From an uncultured Spirochaetaceae bacterium (lineage in GTDB: Bacteria; Spirochaetota; Spirochaetia; Sphaerochaetales; Sphaerochaetaceae), in assembly GCA_944388955.1 (NCBI GenBank), contig CALXKJ010000005.1:62001-126000 (forward strand): a stretch of DNA of 64,000 nucleotides. The letters run 5' to 3'. The position numbers were made by a program, and so were the translations under genes. Below, piece by piece: positions 27,834 to 32,573 of this stretch. Below the pieces are notes generated by a model. The model searched no databases, was not told the origin of the DNA, and saw only the letters and a list, made by a program, of their open reading frames with translations. Within the stretch, counting starts at the first letter, position 1. Each line of letters starts with the position of its first letter.

Positions 27834-29318
27834 TCATATTCGCAGACGGATTTTCTGGTTTGGTGCTCTTTTACTGCTTTCTGTGTATTCTATCCTTCCC
27901 TGAGCCATTAGATTCTTAATCACAGCTCTTAAAGATGATGGTGGCATTTGATAGCCTAGCTTACTGGATAATTCAGATACGGAAAGTTTGCCTTCATCCG
28001 CAAGCAGCGAGAGAACATCATTCCTAAGCTCAGCATCGGAGCGTCGCCTGCCATTCTCCTCTTTTTCCGGAGCAAACCCGGGATGTATCGGGAGAACTAC
28101 TGAAAAATGACAGCGTTCGTTATCTGAGATAAATACAGGGAAAGGAGAGCCGTTGCTTTCCATTGCGCTGATAATCTTCGCAATTCCCGTGTTACGGCCT
28201 TCTGCCAATCGAAGTTCTTTCAGATAATCCCCAATCCTCCTGTTACGGTATCGCTGTCCAACTATATGACCATTCTGGAGATCATCATCTGTGATATATC
28301 TGTCAGGACCTGGAAAGCTTTTGATTTCAAGACAATCAGGAGTAAGCGTAACTGTGATAGGCTCCCTTATTTCATATGACTTATGATAAACAGCATTAAC
28401 AAGAGCTTCTTCAATAGCAGCATATGGAAAGTTGAAGAATCGTATAGCCTCTGCTTGGGTATCCAGCTTCATTATCCTTTCTTTTATGACATATCCACGA
28501 ATGAATTGGAGCGCTGATGTTAGCTGTTTATCCAAAGGCCCCTTGAACACGGCCTCGGTCATGTTTTCTCCAGAAGGATTAGGTTTATCAACAAAGTCTA
28601 TCTGCGCATATGGAAAGAAGCGATCCGGACTCTGATTGAAAAACATCAACGCTATATTCTTTGGCAATCGGTATTCAGCCGGCCCCCCAACGATACCCAT
28701 CTGCAATGCAATCTCTTCAAGATTATTTTTGAACGTTTTTGCTAATGAGCTGCCGACATTATTCAGGAACCCTGATACAAGATATGGATCTATATCCTCA
28801 AGTTCAGCCTGATTATTGACACGATCATCAAAGGGGATGTTCTCAGATACGGAAAACAGCTGTTTTTCTTCCGAAGCATTTGCTTTTATCGTATTTGATG
28901 CCTTGCGGATATAGTAAGCCTTGTCGGTTTTAGCGTTTTTATAAATACCGACAGGACATTTATATGGACGGGCATCTCCTCCAGGAACCCAAAGCACAAG
29001 AATATCTTTCCCCTCATATATCTCATGAGAAACAACAGGAACGTACCTCGGTTCAATCAAATTACACTTGTTCACGATATCTTTGTTGATATCGTCAATT
29101 GAATCTCGAAGCAGTCCTTTTACAGGAATTATGGGCTTTCCATTCTGCTCCTCAACTCCAATTACAATATATCCACCGCCAATATTGTCTATATCATTTG
29201 CAAAGGCACAAATAGTATGGATTATTGATTCAGGGTTCCATCCCTCTTTGTAATCAATACGTGAACTTTCTACTATTTGCTGTCCTAAAAGCTTTCCCAC
29301 ACTGATTGGCAACGGCAT
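27834..29318 (-). CDS. AlbA_2-domain (Schlafen-like) ATP-binding regulator
   Basis: 494 aa accessory gene. N-terminal AlbA_2 domain (ESSRIDYKEGW, GGGYIVIGVEEQNG; about residues 15-130), a central GHKL-like ATP-binding region of the HATPase_c_4 type (AIEEALVNAVYHKSYE, about 300-320), and a C-terminal winged helix (LSVSELSSKLGYQMPPSSLRAVIKNL). Such proteins are common around mobile elements and toxin or defence genes and are called putative transcriptional regulators; the true activity is unknown. SD sequence GGGGAGG. A hexamer repeat sits in its 5' leader. Confidence 0.82.
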   Translation of the reverse strand: MPLPISVGKLLGQQIVESSRIDYKEGWNPESIIHTICAFANDIDNIGGGYIVIGVEEQNGKPIIPVKGLLRDSIDDINKDIVNKCNLIEPRYVPVVSHEIYEGKDILVLWVPGGDARPYKCPVGIYKNAKTDKAYYIRKASNTIKANASEEKQLFSVSENIPFDDRVNNQAELEDIDPYLVSGFLNNVGSSLAKTFKNNLEEIALQMGIVGGPAEYRLPKNIALMFFNQSPDRFFPYAQIDFVDKPNPSGENMTEAVFKGPLDKQLTSALQFIRGYVIKERIMKLDTQAEAIRFFNFPYAAIEEALVNAVYHKSYEIREPITVTLTPDCLEIKSFPGPDRYITDDDLQNGHIVGQRYRNRRIGDYLKELRLAEGRNTGIAKIISAMESNGSPFPVFISDNERCHFSVVLPIHPGFAPEKEENGRRRSDAELRNDVLSLLADEGKLSVSELSSKLGYQMPPSSLRAVIKNLMAQGRIEYTESSKRAPNQKIRLRI

Positions 29319-29575: not shown

Positions 29576-29872
29576 ATGACAATAGAAAGAAACATCAATG
29601 GAACGAGTATGATTTTCATGCTCACGGAGTCAGAACTTTTCAAAGCATATAAAGAACAGAAAGAAGAACTATTATCTTCTTTTGCTCTTTCATTTCTTTC
29701 TGCATATCCATCGTTCCCTAAACAGAAAGCAGATGATTTCATATCATCATTTCTACATGAGATAGCGAAAACCGATAGCTCTGAAGAATATGATTGCGCT
29801 ATGAAAATCCTCATCAGAGATTTTCCTGAGGTTATAGCTTCTGGTATTTCCCCCGCTCAAGAAATGCAATGA
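29576..29872 (+). CDS. Small hypothetical protein
   Basis: 98 aa. Begins MTIERNINGTSMIFMLTESELFKAYKEQ. The I-N-G then L-T-E-x-E-L-x-x-A-Y-x-E-Q pattern recalls small proteins common on accessory elements of gut anaerobes, but no function is known for them. No convincing SD sequence precedes the ATG; an internal Met at residue 12 or 15 is an alternative. It overlaps the 3' end of the convergent beta-helix/winged-helix gene by 41 nt. Confidence 0.45.
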   Translation: MTIERNINGTSMIFMLTESELFKAYKEQKEELLSSFALSFLSAYPSFPKQKADDFISSFLHEIAKTDSSEEYDCAMKILIRDFPEVIASGISPAQEMQ

Positions 29873-30659
29873 CACCGGCATCTCTGAGTTTCTGAAGCTG
29901 TTGCCTGATTTTGTCTTTTATAAAGTTGTTGTCGGGATATTTTCCCTTCAGTTCATCTTTGTATGAATACACATCATCAAGAGTAAAATACTCCTTCGTA
30001 ATTTTGTTCTTCACAATATCTTCGATATTATCGTACCAAGTGCTCATACGTTCATGATAACACGGAACAAAGCCTTTCACCGAAGACAGAGGATAAACAA
30101 CAGCATCTTTCGCGATTACAGATCCTGGATTTATAACAGAGTTGCAGCCGATTTCCGCCCTGTCTCCGATGAGAGCTCCAAGCTTCAGCATGCCTGTATC
30201 CATTGTATTGTTCTCATAATGTATTCGTACTGGTTTCTTATCGAGACGCACATTCGATAGCTTTACGCCTGCTCCGAGATGGGCTTTATAGCCAAGAATG
30301 CTATCTCCTACATAGCTGAAGTGCGGGATTTCAGCTTCGTCGAATATGATTGAATTCTTTATCTCTGAAGAGTTCCCGATTACAGCTTTCTTCCCTATCA
30401 CGGCATTTCCCCTGATAAATGCTGAGAAACGGATTTCCGCACCTTCACAGATGATACAAGGCGGCATGATGCATGTCCCTGAAGAAACAGCAGCACTCTC
30501 ATGAACCCAGACACCTTCCGTGATTTCCCTGAAACCTGTCTTATCATAGGATTCGATGAATTCGGATATATGATTCAATACTTCGTGCGGATAGCCGAAT
30601 GAGGCTAAGAAATTTCCTGCTATTGAATGCTCCAGTGAGAATAAATCTTTCGCTTTCAT
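29832..30659 (-). CDS. Left-handed beta-helix nucleotidyltransferase-like protein fused to a DpnI-C-like winged helix
   Basis: 275 aa. Residues about 35-200 form hexapeptide-repeat turns (GTCIMPPCIICEGAEIRFSAFIRGNAVIG, NPGSVIAKDAVVYPLSSVKG) as in GlmU-like C-terminal halves; related stand-alone proteins end shortly after the PLS.V+G segment. Here about 75 residues follow, and the last 51 (FTLDDVYSYKDELKG, IRQQLQKLRDAGVIAFLERGKY) match the winged-helix domain at the C-terminus of DpnI-type (Dam-replacing) restriction enzymes. Start set at the ATG at 30659, which overlaps the esterase stop (ATGA). Sugar-nucleotide metabolism plus DNA binding is an unexpected pairing. Confidence 0.75.
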   Translation of the reverse strand: MKAKDLFSLEHSIAGNFLASFGYPHEVLNHISEFIESYDKTGFREITEGVWVHESAAVSSGTCIMPPCIICEGAEIRFSAFIRGNAVIGKKAVIGNSSEIKNSIIFDEAEIPHFSYVGDSILGYKAHLGAGVKLSNVRLDKKPVRIHYENNTMDTGMLKLGALIGDRAEIGCNSVINPGSVIAKDAVVYPLSSVKGFVPCYHERMSTWYDNIEDIVKNKITKEYFTLDDVYSYKDELKGKYPDNNFIKDKIRQQLQKLRDAGVIAFLERGKYQKL

Positions 30660-31321
30660 ATAATAAACTCCGGTCGTTCTGAAAGCATTGAAAGCGCGTC
30701 GAAAATAAGAGAAGCGACCCACTCGGCACCTTCTGGTCTGAGATGCGTATCATCCTCGTTTCCTTCTGGATAATTCTCATAAAGACCAGGACCGAAATTC
30801 ATGAAATAGTCTTTTGATTCCTCTTCGCCACGGGCCATTATGCCAATCATTGTGGGTATTGTCATATCAATGCAATCCACAGAGGCATCATGCGCCGCAG
30901 CTTTCATAGCCGCAGGCCAATCTCCATGCGTATCAACAAGAAGACCATCTTCAAATCTGCGCCGAGCTATTGACGTTATGAAGATTGCCCTAACACCCTT
31001 TTTCCTGAACTCTTCAGCCATGTAGATGAGATTCACGCGATAAGCATGCCAGGCATCTGCGCCTCGTCCCTCTTTCACTTTCTCGTCGTTATGTCCGAAC
31101 TGGATAATAACAGCATCTCCAGATACTGCATCTTCAAGCGCTTTATGAAATTCTCCGTTCTCGAGTATCTCTCTGGTAGAACGTCCGTTTATGGCTCTGT
31201 TATCGAGAATCCAACCGGGTTTGAGATATTTCCAGAAAACCTCTCCCCATCCCGTCTCAGGCCTTGCGGATGCTGTTTTGATAGCACATGTCGAATCACC
31301 GAGAAGAAAAAGACGCGGCAT
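30656..31321 (-). CDS. SGNH/GDSL-family esterase (rhamnogalacturonan acetylesterase-like)
   Basis: 221 aa. Block I LFLLGDST with the nucleophile Ser near residue 8, block III VIIQFGHNDEK, and block V with the Asp-His pair in DDTHLRPEGAEW. This order is typical of RGAE/pectin acetylesterases (CE12), which remove acetyl groups from pectic sugars. No signal peptide is present, so a cytoplasmic role on imported acetylated oligouronides is suggested. Start at ATG 31321 behind AGGAG; a longer frame to 31372 is not supported. It lies downstream of kdgK across a terminator. Confidence 0.85.
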   Translation of the reverse strand: MPRLFLLGDSTCAIKTASARPETGWGEVFWKYLKPGWILDNRAINGRSTREILENGEFHKALEDAVSGDAVIIQFGHNDEKVKEGRGADAWHAYRVNLIYMAEEFRKKGVRAIFITSIARRRFEDGLLVDTHGDWPAAMKAAAHDASVDCIDMTIPTMIGIMARGEEESKDYFMNFGPGLYENYPEGNEDDTHLRPEGAEWVASLIFDALSMLSERPEFII

Positions 31322-31378: not shown

Positions 31379-32413
31379 TCAGCGCTGAACGCGTCCAGAG
31401 CCATCTCCCTCACAGAGAGCCTTGACTTCGTTAAGGCGTGTAAGGTTGAAGTCGCCGCTGATAGAGTGCTTAAGGCAGGATGAAGCAACTGCGAAATTGA
31501 TTGCATACTGCTCATCATCGAAGTGAGAAAGAGCATAGATGATACCAGCTGCGAAGGAGTCACCGCCGCCGACTCTGTCGACAATATCGGTAATCTCATA
31601 ATGTCTTGAAAGATAGAAACCTGTCTTTCCGGAAAGTGCTGCTGACCAGCCATTGTGATCTGCGCTCTTTGACTCACGAAGAGTAATTGCGACAACAGAC
31701 ACGTTCGGGAACTGCTCCTTAACCTTTGCTGCAAGCTCCTCATATACCTTTGTATCAAGCTCGCCCTTTGTAACATCGCTGTCAGCTTCAATTCCGAGGC
31801 ACTTCTGGATATCCTCCTCGTTAGCTATAACGACATCAGCATACTTAACAAGCTCTCTCATCACCTCTGGAGCCTTCTTTCCATAATTCCAGAGCTTCTT
31901 GCGGTAGTTAAGGTCGATGGAAACTGTAGCGCCAGCCTTCTTTGCAGCCTTCATAGCAGCAAGAGCACAGTCTGCAGCACCCTGGCTGATAGCCGGTGTG
32001 ATACCTGTTGTATGGAACCATGTAGCGCCATTGAGGATAGCATCAAAATCAAAATCTGCAGGAACTGCATTAGCGATAGCGGAATCCGCGCGGTCATATA
32101 CAACGAGAGAAGGTCTCTGGTTTGCGCCTGTCTCAAGGAAGTAGATACCGAGTCTGCTGCCCTTTACCTTGTTGATAGCGGATGTATCAACACCATACTT
32201 CATGAGCTCACGCTCTGCAGCCTCACCAACAGCGTTGTCAGGAAGAGCTGTCACGAACACAGCCTTCTCGCCGAAGATTGAAAGAGATACTGCTACATTT
32301 GCCTCACCACCACCGAATGTTGCTTCAAGAGAAGGTGTCTGGAAAAGACGATAGAGCTCCTGGCTTCTGAGGCGGAGCATGATTTCACCGAAAGTTACGT
32401 ATTTATTGGACAT
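31379..32413 (-). CDS. kdgK: 2-dehydro-3-deoxygluconokinase
   Basis: 344 aa PfkB-family kinase. Phosphorylates KDG, the common product of altronate and mannonate dehydration, to KDPG. The N-terminal FGEIMLRL and FGGGEANVAVSL substrate region and the C-terminal catalytic DRVGGGDSFAAG (anion hole and base Asp) are intact. SD sequence AGGAGG. Divergent from eda, with the shared operator at 32505-32521, and ended by a strong terminator. Confidence 0.94.
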   Translation of the reverse strand: MSNKYVTFGEIMLRLRSQELYRLFQTPSLEATFGGGEANVAVSLSIFGEKAVFVTALPDNAVGEAAERELMKYGVDTSAINKVKGSRLGIYFLETGANQRPSLVVYDRADSAIANAVPADFDFDAILNGATWFHTTGITPAISQGAADCALAAMKAAKKAGATVSIDLNYRKKLWNYGKKAPEVMRELVKYADVVIANEEDIQKCLGIEADSDVTKGELDTKVYEELAAKVKEQFPNVSVVAITLRESKSADHNGWSAALSGKTGFYLSRHYEITDIVDRVGGGDSFAAGIIYALSHFDDEQYAINFAVASSCLKHSISGDFNLTRLNEVKALCEGDGSGRVQR

Positions 32414-32521: not shown

Positions 32522-32573
32522 TTCCGCCCATGCTGTGGTACAATTCAGGAAGACTCTAAAAAGGGAGATCACT

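Follow-up and report, generated by a model that had tools for sequence, protein, structure and literature searches.

A left-handed beta-helix acetyltransferase fused to a DpnI-type winged helix in uncultured Spirochaetota

A gene in the window (i.e., the whole 64,000-nucleotide stretch analysed here, from an uncultured gut bacterium of the Spirochaetaceae) encodes a left-handed beta-helix (LbH) acyltransferase that continues, in the same frame, into a DpnI-type winged helix. Both parts have the expected fold and retain key residues, the winged helix has been under purifying selection, and a second fusion, differently built, is found in another species of the genus. In our judgement, there is about an even chance that the product is a trimeric acetyltransferase whose winged helix confers methylation-dependent DNA binding, a function as regulator or silencer being its likeliest use. 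We put forward only tentatively the broader reading, in which an acetyltransferase twice acquired the N6-methyladenine (6mA) reader of a restriction enzyme and, as a DNA-bound enzyme or regulator dependent on 6mA, now couples sugar metabolism to methylation.

The fusion gene and its acetyltransferase half

The fusion gene (P0001) occupies positions 29832–30659 of the minus strand and encodes 275 aa, in a single frame that runs without stops from the ATG at 30659 to the stop codon at 29832–29834. LbH and DpnI_C matches both lie within this one continuous ORF, which confirms the fusion proposed by a sequence-only reading of this DNA. An assembly artefact is unlikely, since the gene is internal to a 146-kb contig and an analogous fusion is present in a second species.

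That reading had described the N-terminal part as an LbH of acyl- or nucleotidyltransferase type. The LbH assignment holds, while the nucleotidyltransferase does not: only the acyltransferase-type half is there, and no NTP_transferase domain was found in the fusion protein by the Pfam search. Residues 1–44 (30528–30659) form instead a short helical segment, which homologues without the fusion share, with helices at residues 3–6, 15–19, and 24–37 in an AlphaFold2 model (pLDDT of about 90). The GlmU/ST0452-type acetyltransferase domain follows at residues 45–197 (30069–30527), where hexapeptide and LbH families are matched in the Pfam profile search (approximately residues 45–197; Hexapep, 3.6e-13). 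The best NCBIfam match is the archaeal GlmU family TIGR03992 (7.2e-45), of which only the C-terminal acetyltransferase part is covered, and the best PDB sequence match, for residues 49–194, is ST0452 (95 bits). The model of the whole protein, computed as a monomer, has a mean pLDDT of 87 and consists of the N-terminal helices, the beta-helix, a poorly ordered joint of low model confidence at residues 202–206, and a winged helix from residue 206; in a structure search, its first part superimposes on ST0452 with a Z score of 25.4 and an rmsd of 2.3 Å over 194 residues.

The residues H308, Y311, N331, K337, and K340, which we take to be the active-site residues of ST0452, correspond in a gapless alignment to H113, Y116, N136, K142, and R145 of the fusion protein, a putative active-site stretch encoded at 30225–30323. 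Four of the five are identical and K340 is replaced by R145; with these residues kept, the enzyme half looks catalytically competent, as judged from sequence. The protein would form a trimer and perform acetyl transfer. The Sulfolobus protein ST0452 and the C-terminal acetyltransferase domains of GlmU share the LbH fold with the fusion at about 30% identity, but differ from it in having an N-terminal nucleotidyltransferase and in lacking a DNA-binding tail. Closer relatives, with 47–49% identity over about 200 residues, are the stand-alone LbH proteins of Ruminococcus albus (WP_013483603) and Vescimonas (WP_212821727), annotated as "UDP-N-acetylglucosamine pyrophosphorylase" and, unlike the fusion, devoid of a winged helix. 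The R. albus gene adjoins a nucleotidyltransferase gene, an arrangement which suggests that an ST0452-like enzyme has been split and that this acyltransferase family represents its acetyltransferase half.

The winged helix and its DNA-contact residues

The linker and fusion junction (residues 198–206, 30042–30068), from which the native LbH tail of 15–20 aa is absent, lead into the winged helix at residues 207–275 (29835–30041). The sequence-only reading had likened the last 51 residues to the DNA-binding domain of Dam-replacing restriction enzymes; the domain is indeed of this DpnI type, its extent being larger, about 69 residues. The profile search of the C-terminus proposed with that reading gave an unambiguous answer, as the Pfam family DpnI_C (PF17726) matches residues 207–274 with 88 bits (E-value 4.5e-25, profile positions 4–70 of 70), far above the curated cut-off of 23 bits. 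The sole confident PDB sequence match of the C-terminus is DpnI itself (residues 218–275, 47 bits). Because the structure-search output for the full model was filled with LbH matches, the winged helix was also modelled alone (pLDDT 89); this model superimposes on the DpnI–DNA complex 4kyw with a TM score of 0.92, an rmsd of 0.8 Å, and 47% identity, and the next folds after DpnI score far lower.

Replacement of K229 and R231 of DpnI by alanine weakens DNA binding by its winged helix (PMC4117772). A gapless alignment places K250 and R252 of the fusion at these two positions, within the recognition helix (residues 244–260, 29880–29930), so that both residues are kept. Measured against the consensus sequence drawn from 27 DpnI-type nucleases, the fusion retains 18 of 21 residues in its recognition helix (0.86, for a nuclease mean of 0.87) and 8 of 13 in its wing (nuclease mean 0.64), whereas the first helix (6/16, i.e., 0.38, versus a mean of 0.56) and the segment comprising the FTL motif and the second helix (7/17, i.e., 0.41, versus 0.68) have diverged; conservation is thus concentrated on the side that faces the DNA. 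In the second fusion, found in the genome hereafter called G034, the winged helix is further from the consensus, with 0.57 for the recognition helix and 0.31 for the wing.

The resemblance to R.DpnI and the Dam-replacing restriction enzymes (PD-(D/E)XK-wH) is therefore one of winged helices, with 47% identity to DpnI and retention of the K229/R231 equivalents; the PD-(D/E)XK nuclease domain was not found in the fusion protein with Pfam, and the beta-helix acyltransferase stands in its place. DpnI-type winged helices have been 6mA readers in every published case that was tested, and that of DpnI also tolerates Sm6ATS (PMC11037411). By extension, the fusion protein probably binds DNA in a methyl-dependent manner.

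Distribution of the fusion and number of captures

The genus surveyed is that of Candidatus Ornithospirochaeta (Spirochaetota), represented by 48 genomes. The acyltransferase is encoded in 23 of them, two of which carry an intact fusion: the genome of the window (G000) and G034, whose 288-aa protein is encoded beside the same GDSL gene as in the window. DpnI_C was found in a third genome of the genus, G030, where the domain is broken (see below). The remaining acyltransferases have their own tail of 15–20 aa and no winged helix. Homologues with an unrelated C-terminus had been named beforehand as evidence against the fusion, and they are indeed the majority, 21 of the 23 being without an intact fusion; yet the domain is present in the window, and the scarcity of winged helices among homologues points to a lineage-specific addition rather than to absence of the domain.

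In the 139 genomes of the family, DpnI_C was otherwise found in just two proteins, a true DpnI (G100) and one from the next genus (G162). The latter was considered as a relative of the fusion and rejected: its gene (L042, 6046–6840, minus strand) encodes a PLD-like nuclease with a C-terminal DpnI_C, that is, the PLD-wH architecture already described (PMC11037411). Across 392 genomes of the phylum, the other DpnI_C loci with readable frames are DpnI-type nucleases, whole or partial; three further loci are weak or short. Apparent instances of the same fusion in Opitutales, Lentisphaeria, and Flavobacteriaceae, with matches extending from residue 145–170 to 275, proved to be ORFs of ordinary DpnI enzymes. 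A possible winged-helix remnant past the stop codon in G018 (match to residues 5–239, interrupted by three TGA) was likewise discarded as probably a chance extension, DpnI_C searches of the contig being empty.

Several observations bear on how many times the winged helix was acquired. In a tree of winged helices, the window and G030 domains form a pair (100/100) that groups with DpnI from Muribaculaceae (96/87), while the G034 domain, on a long branch, groups with the DpnI of G100 (98/85). Forcing the three domains into one clade costs 8.8 log units, with an AU p-value of 0.055, i.e., a single origin is not rejected. In the tree of acyltransferase domains, G034 is separated, with modest support, from the window and G030 and falls among relatives that have no fusion (74% to G016). 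Lastly, the native tail is kept at the G034 junction and lost in the window. Given these different junctions and the grouping of the winged helices with different DpnI nucleases, two captures are likely.

The sequence-only reading had left a choice between a novel DNA-associated enzyme and the captured end of a mobile element. With DpnI N-terminal halves as queries, no remnant of the nuclease part was detected in the window or in the G030, G034, G018, G007, and L028 loci, and no mobile element was found beside the fusion gene. An origin from a mobile element or virus was rejected, as two peptide-pattern scans of viral contigs revealed no related locus and no DpnI N-terminal remnant lies near the gene. 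Together with purifying selection and a probably independent second fusion, these results favour the first option.

The broken domain of G030 and selection on the winged helix

In the sister species G030, the kinase, GDSL, and acyltransferase genes follow one another as in the window, and the acyltransferase ends after VKGFIAHS. A gene for a 640-aa FUSC-type membrane protein then separates it from a winged-helix ORF with its own ATG, which encodes the first 51 residues of the domain and ends before the wing. The locus (L044, 3776–5956) has the appearance of a split fusion gene. Being cut off and truncated, the winged helix is dispensable in G030, and this counts against a functional reading.

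The comparison of the two species nevertheless informs on the history of the domain. Between the window and G030, pS and pN are 0.746 and 0.132, respectively, for the acyltransferase (LbH) part, and 0.728 and 0.149 for the 50 comparable codons of the winged helix. With synonymous sites near saturation, an unconstrained tail should display a pN similar to pS; the low pN of the winged helix indicates that it was held by selection during most of the time since the two lineages split. The winged helix is thus under purifying selection, comparable to that on the enzyme half. Furthermore, the two species differ at 14 winged-helix sites. The window has the more nuclease-like residue at 8 of these sites and G030 at 3, and the G030 sequence shows radical changes (F to R, E to W, K to E), a pattern that agrees with recent decay in G030 and retention in the window.

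These data weigh directly on the possibility that the tail is a neutral relic, i.e., a piece of a decayed DpnI-type gene into which the acyltransferase frame now extends, adding a harmless C-terminal stretch devoid of DNA binding. The fusion is rare and patchy in the genus, the domain is broken in G030, the GC content of the tail is low (0.371 versus 0.44), and the stem branch of the window/G030 winged helices is long (1.2 changes per site), all of which would fit such a relic. However, a relic accounts poorly for the low pN at saturated pS, for a recognition helix retained at nuclease level, for the bias of the differing sites toward nuclease-like residues in the window, for a third-position GC of the tail that is already host-like (0.451 versus 0.431), and for a second fusion with another junction in G034. 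We consider this explanation unlikely.

Selection could also have acted on a separate winged-helix protein instead of the fusion. If the winged helix was an independent small protein in the common ancestor, and the window lineage fused it to the enzyme by deleting the FUSC-type gene, then selection before the fusion says nothing about the fusion itself. The succession of enzyme gene, FUSC-type gene, and winged-helix ORF with its own ATG in G030 would agree with such a late event. On the other hand, the acyltransferases of the window and G030 both lack the native tail of 15–20 aa, and at the same point, as expected from one shared fusion; the FUSC-type gene occurs only sporadically in the genus and G000 lacks it, so that G030 is no less likely to have gained it by insertion than the window lineage is to have deleted it; and, on inspection, no obvious ribosome-binding site precedes the ATG of the G030 fragment, while short homology to the window extends upstream of it. 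These features seem to fit better with an old, shared fusion that G030 afterwards broke apart, and a late fusion appears improbable.

Gene neighbourhood and host methylation

The fusion gene is the last of a run that also comprises the genes for a GDSL-type esterase (30656–31321, minus strand; Lipase_GDSL_2, 6.2e-12), a conserved partner in the genus whose 4-base overlap with the fusion gene indicates coupling, and, upstream in the same run, for a PfkB-family sugar kinase of the 2-keto-3-deoxygluconate kinase type (31379–32413, minus strand; PfkB, 4.9e-33). From reading of the translations, KDPG-aldolase-like and enolase-family sugar genes are nearby, and the locus is a hexuronate/pectin locus. 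On its other side, the fusion gene is adjoined by a gene for a protein of Schlafen/AlbA_2–HATPase_c_4–winged-helix type (27834–29318, minus strand), at which a stretch of lower GC is observed (0.36–0.39 at 29.0–29.9 kb). A 98-aa ORF with no family match (29576–29872, plus strand) runs opposite to the fusion gene, shares 41 bases with its 3′ end, and is a possible gene.

As for a possible source of 6mA, the G000 genome contains, on contig C8 at about 24.9–26.8 kb (L095), a 1035-aa frame that combines two D12 adenine-methyltransferase domains with an N-terminal part weakly similar to AAA_21 ATPases. Double-D12 frames are present in all six genomes of the genus that were tested, G000 included, and no further D12 enzyme was found in the G000 genome. 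This double D12 layout resembles that of M.FokI, which would yield ApT methylated on both strands within GATG.

In the window, GATC occurs 175 times for 424 expected from trinucleotides (ratio 0.41), and CTAG is depleted as well (0.45). The shortage of GATC could hint at GATC-directed pressure and, thereby, at a role in defence, in which the protein would be a nuclease-free sensor of adenine-methylated foreign DNA, such as dam+ plasmids or phages, that silences or tags it, with trimers bridging DNA as nucleoid silencers do. The derivation of the domain from methyl-directed restriction enzymes (PADLOC mREase_II, 3e-19) and the adjoining Schlafen/AlbA_2-ATPase gene are in line with this. But the depletion is equally strong in relatives that lack the fusion (0.38 in G007, 0.42 in G016) and was therefore rejected as a hallmark of it, and the fusion gene is coupled to esterase and sugar kinase genes, within a sugar locus that is conserved and is no defence island. 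We consider a defence role unlikely. An autoregulatory GATC cluster near the kdgK/kdgA promoter region was also considered and found no support, as only one GATC, at 32567, is present there.

A possible methylation-dependent DNA-bound enzyme

The reading we prefer, that of a trimeric enzyme with a methylation-dependent DNA-binding module, can be outlined as follows. The gene for a stand-alone homotrimeric sugar or sugar-phosphate acetyltransferase of the GlmU/ST0452 type would have fused in frame with a decayed methyl-directed restriction gene, which gave the enzyme a C-terminal DpnI-type winged helix and left its catalytic half intact. Borne on a short flexible linker, the winged helix would bind fully N6-methylated ApT sites, either Gm6ATC or a relaxed form. 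As LbH proteins are trimers, each enzyme would display three winged helices, and this multivalency could hold it on adenine-methylated DNA. The state of the enzyme or its ligand could then modulate DNA binding or, conversely, DNA binding could position the enzyme. The likeliest use would be that of a metabolic enzyme doubling as a methylation-dependent DNA-binding regulator or silencer; such a regulatory role is the best purpose that we can suggest, and it is a speculative one. BirA, NadR, and PutA are metabolic enzymes that also bind DNA and, in this respect, resemble the fusion; as enzyme–HTH regulators, they are nonetheless made of unrelated domains and include no reader of DNA modification.

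The same 6mA-reading winged helix has been described as a reused module in PLD-wH, wH-GIY-YIG, PUA-wH-HNH, and wH-NTPase proteins; in contrast to the fusion reported here, those tested were nucleases, or NTPases paired with nucleases, and none was a transferase (PMC11037411). This 2024 survey of winged-helix fusions reported only nuclease and NTPase partners, nucleases having been its sole target by design (PMC11037411). No acyltransferase–DpnI_C (LbH-wH) fusion was found in the literature searched, which is weak evidence of novelty; the component domains are known, and their combination is new to that literature.

Few bacterial readers of 6mA in DNA are known, and endonucleases are the only proteins in which the DpnI-type winged helix has been characterised (PMC11037411). 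Its fusion, under selection, to a metabolic enzyme indicates recruitment of the module for a non-cutting role and suggests that bacteria use a methylated-adenine reader outside DNA-cutting defence. From its sequence, the protein is a candidate for a natural non-cutting Gm6ATC-binding protein, and it opens to direct test the question of whether bacteria tie metabolism or gene control to methylation state by means of 6mA readers.

A further protein with a DpnI_C domain was noticed on a plasmid of Lactiplantibacillus plantarum (NZ_CP028262.1; L088, 2791–4164). It is a 457-aa protein annotated as a sigma-70 factor, in which DpnI_C (66.6 bits, residues 71–136) is followed by regions 2, 3, and 4 of sigma-70; four plasmids carry near-identical copies, next to a DEAD/DEAH helicase gene. 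Its domain composition makes a 6mA-reading sigma factor possible and, if the winged helices of this protein and of the acetyltransferase fusion truly are readers, the two would show that the DpnI winged helix is put to use more generally, beyond nucleases.
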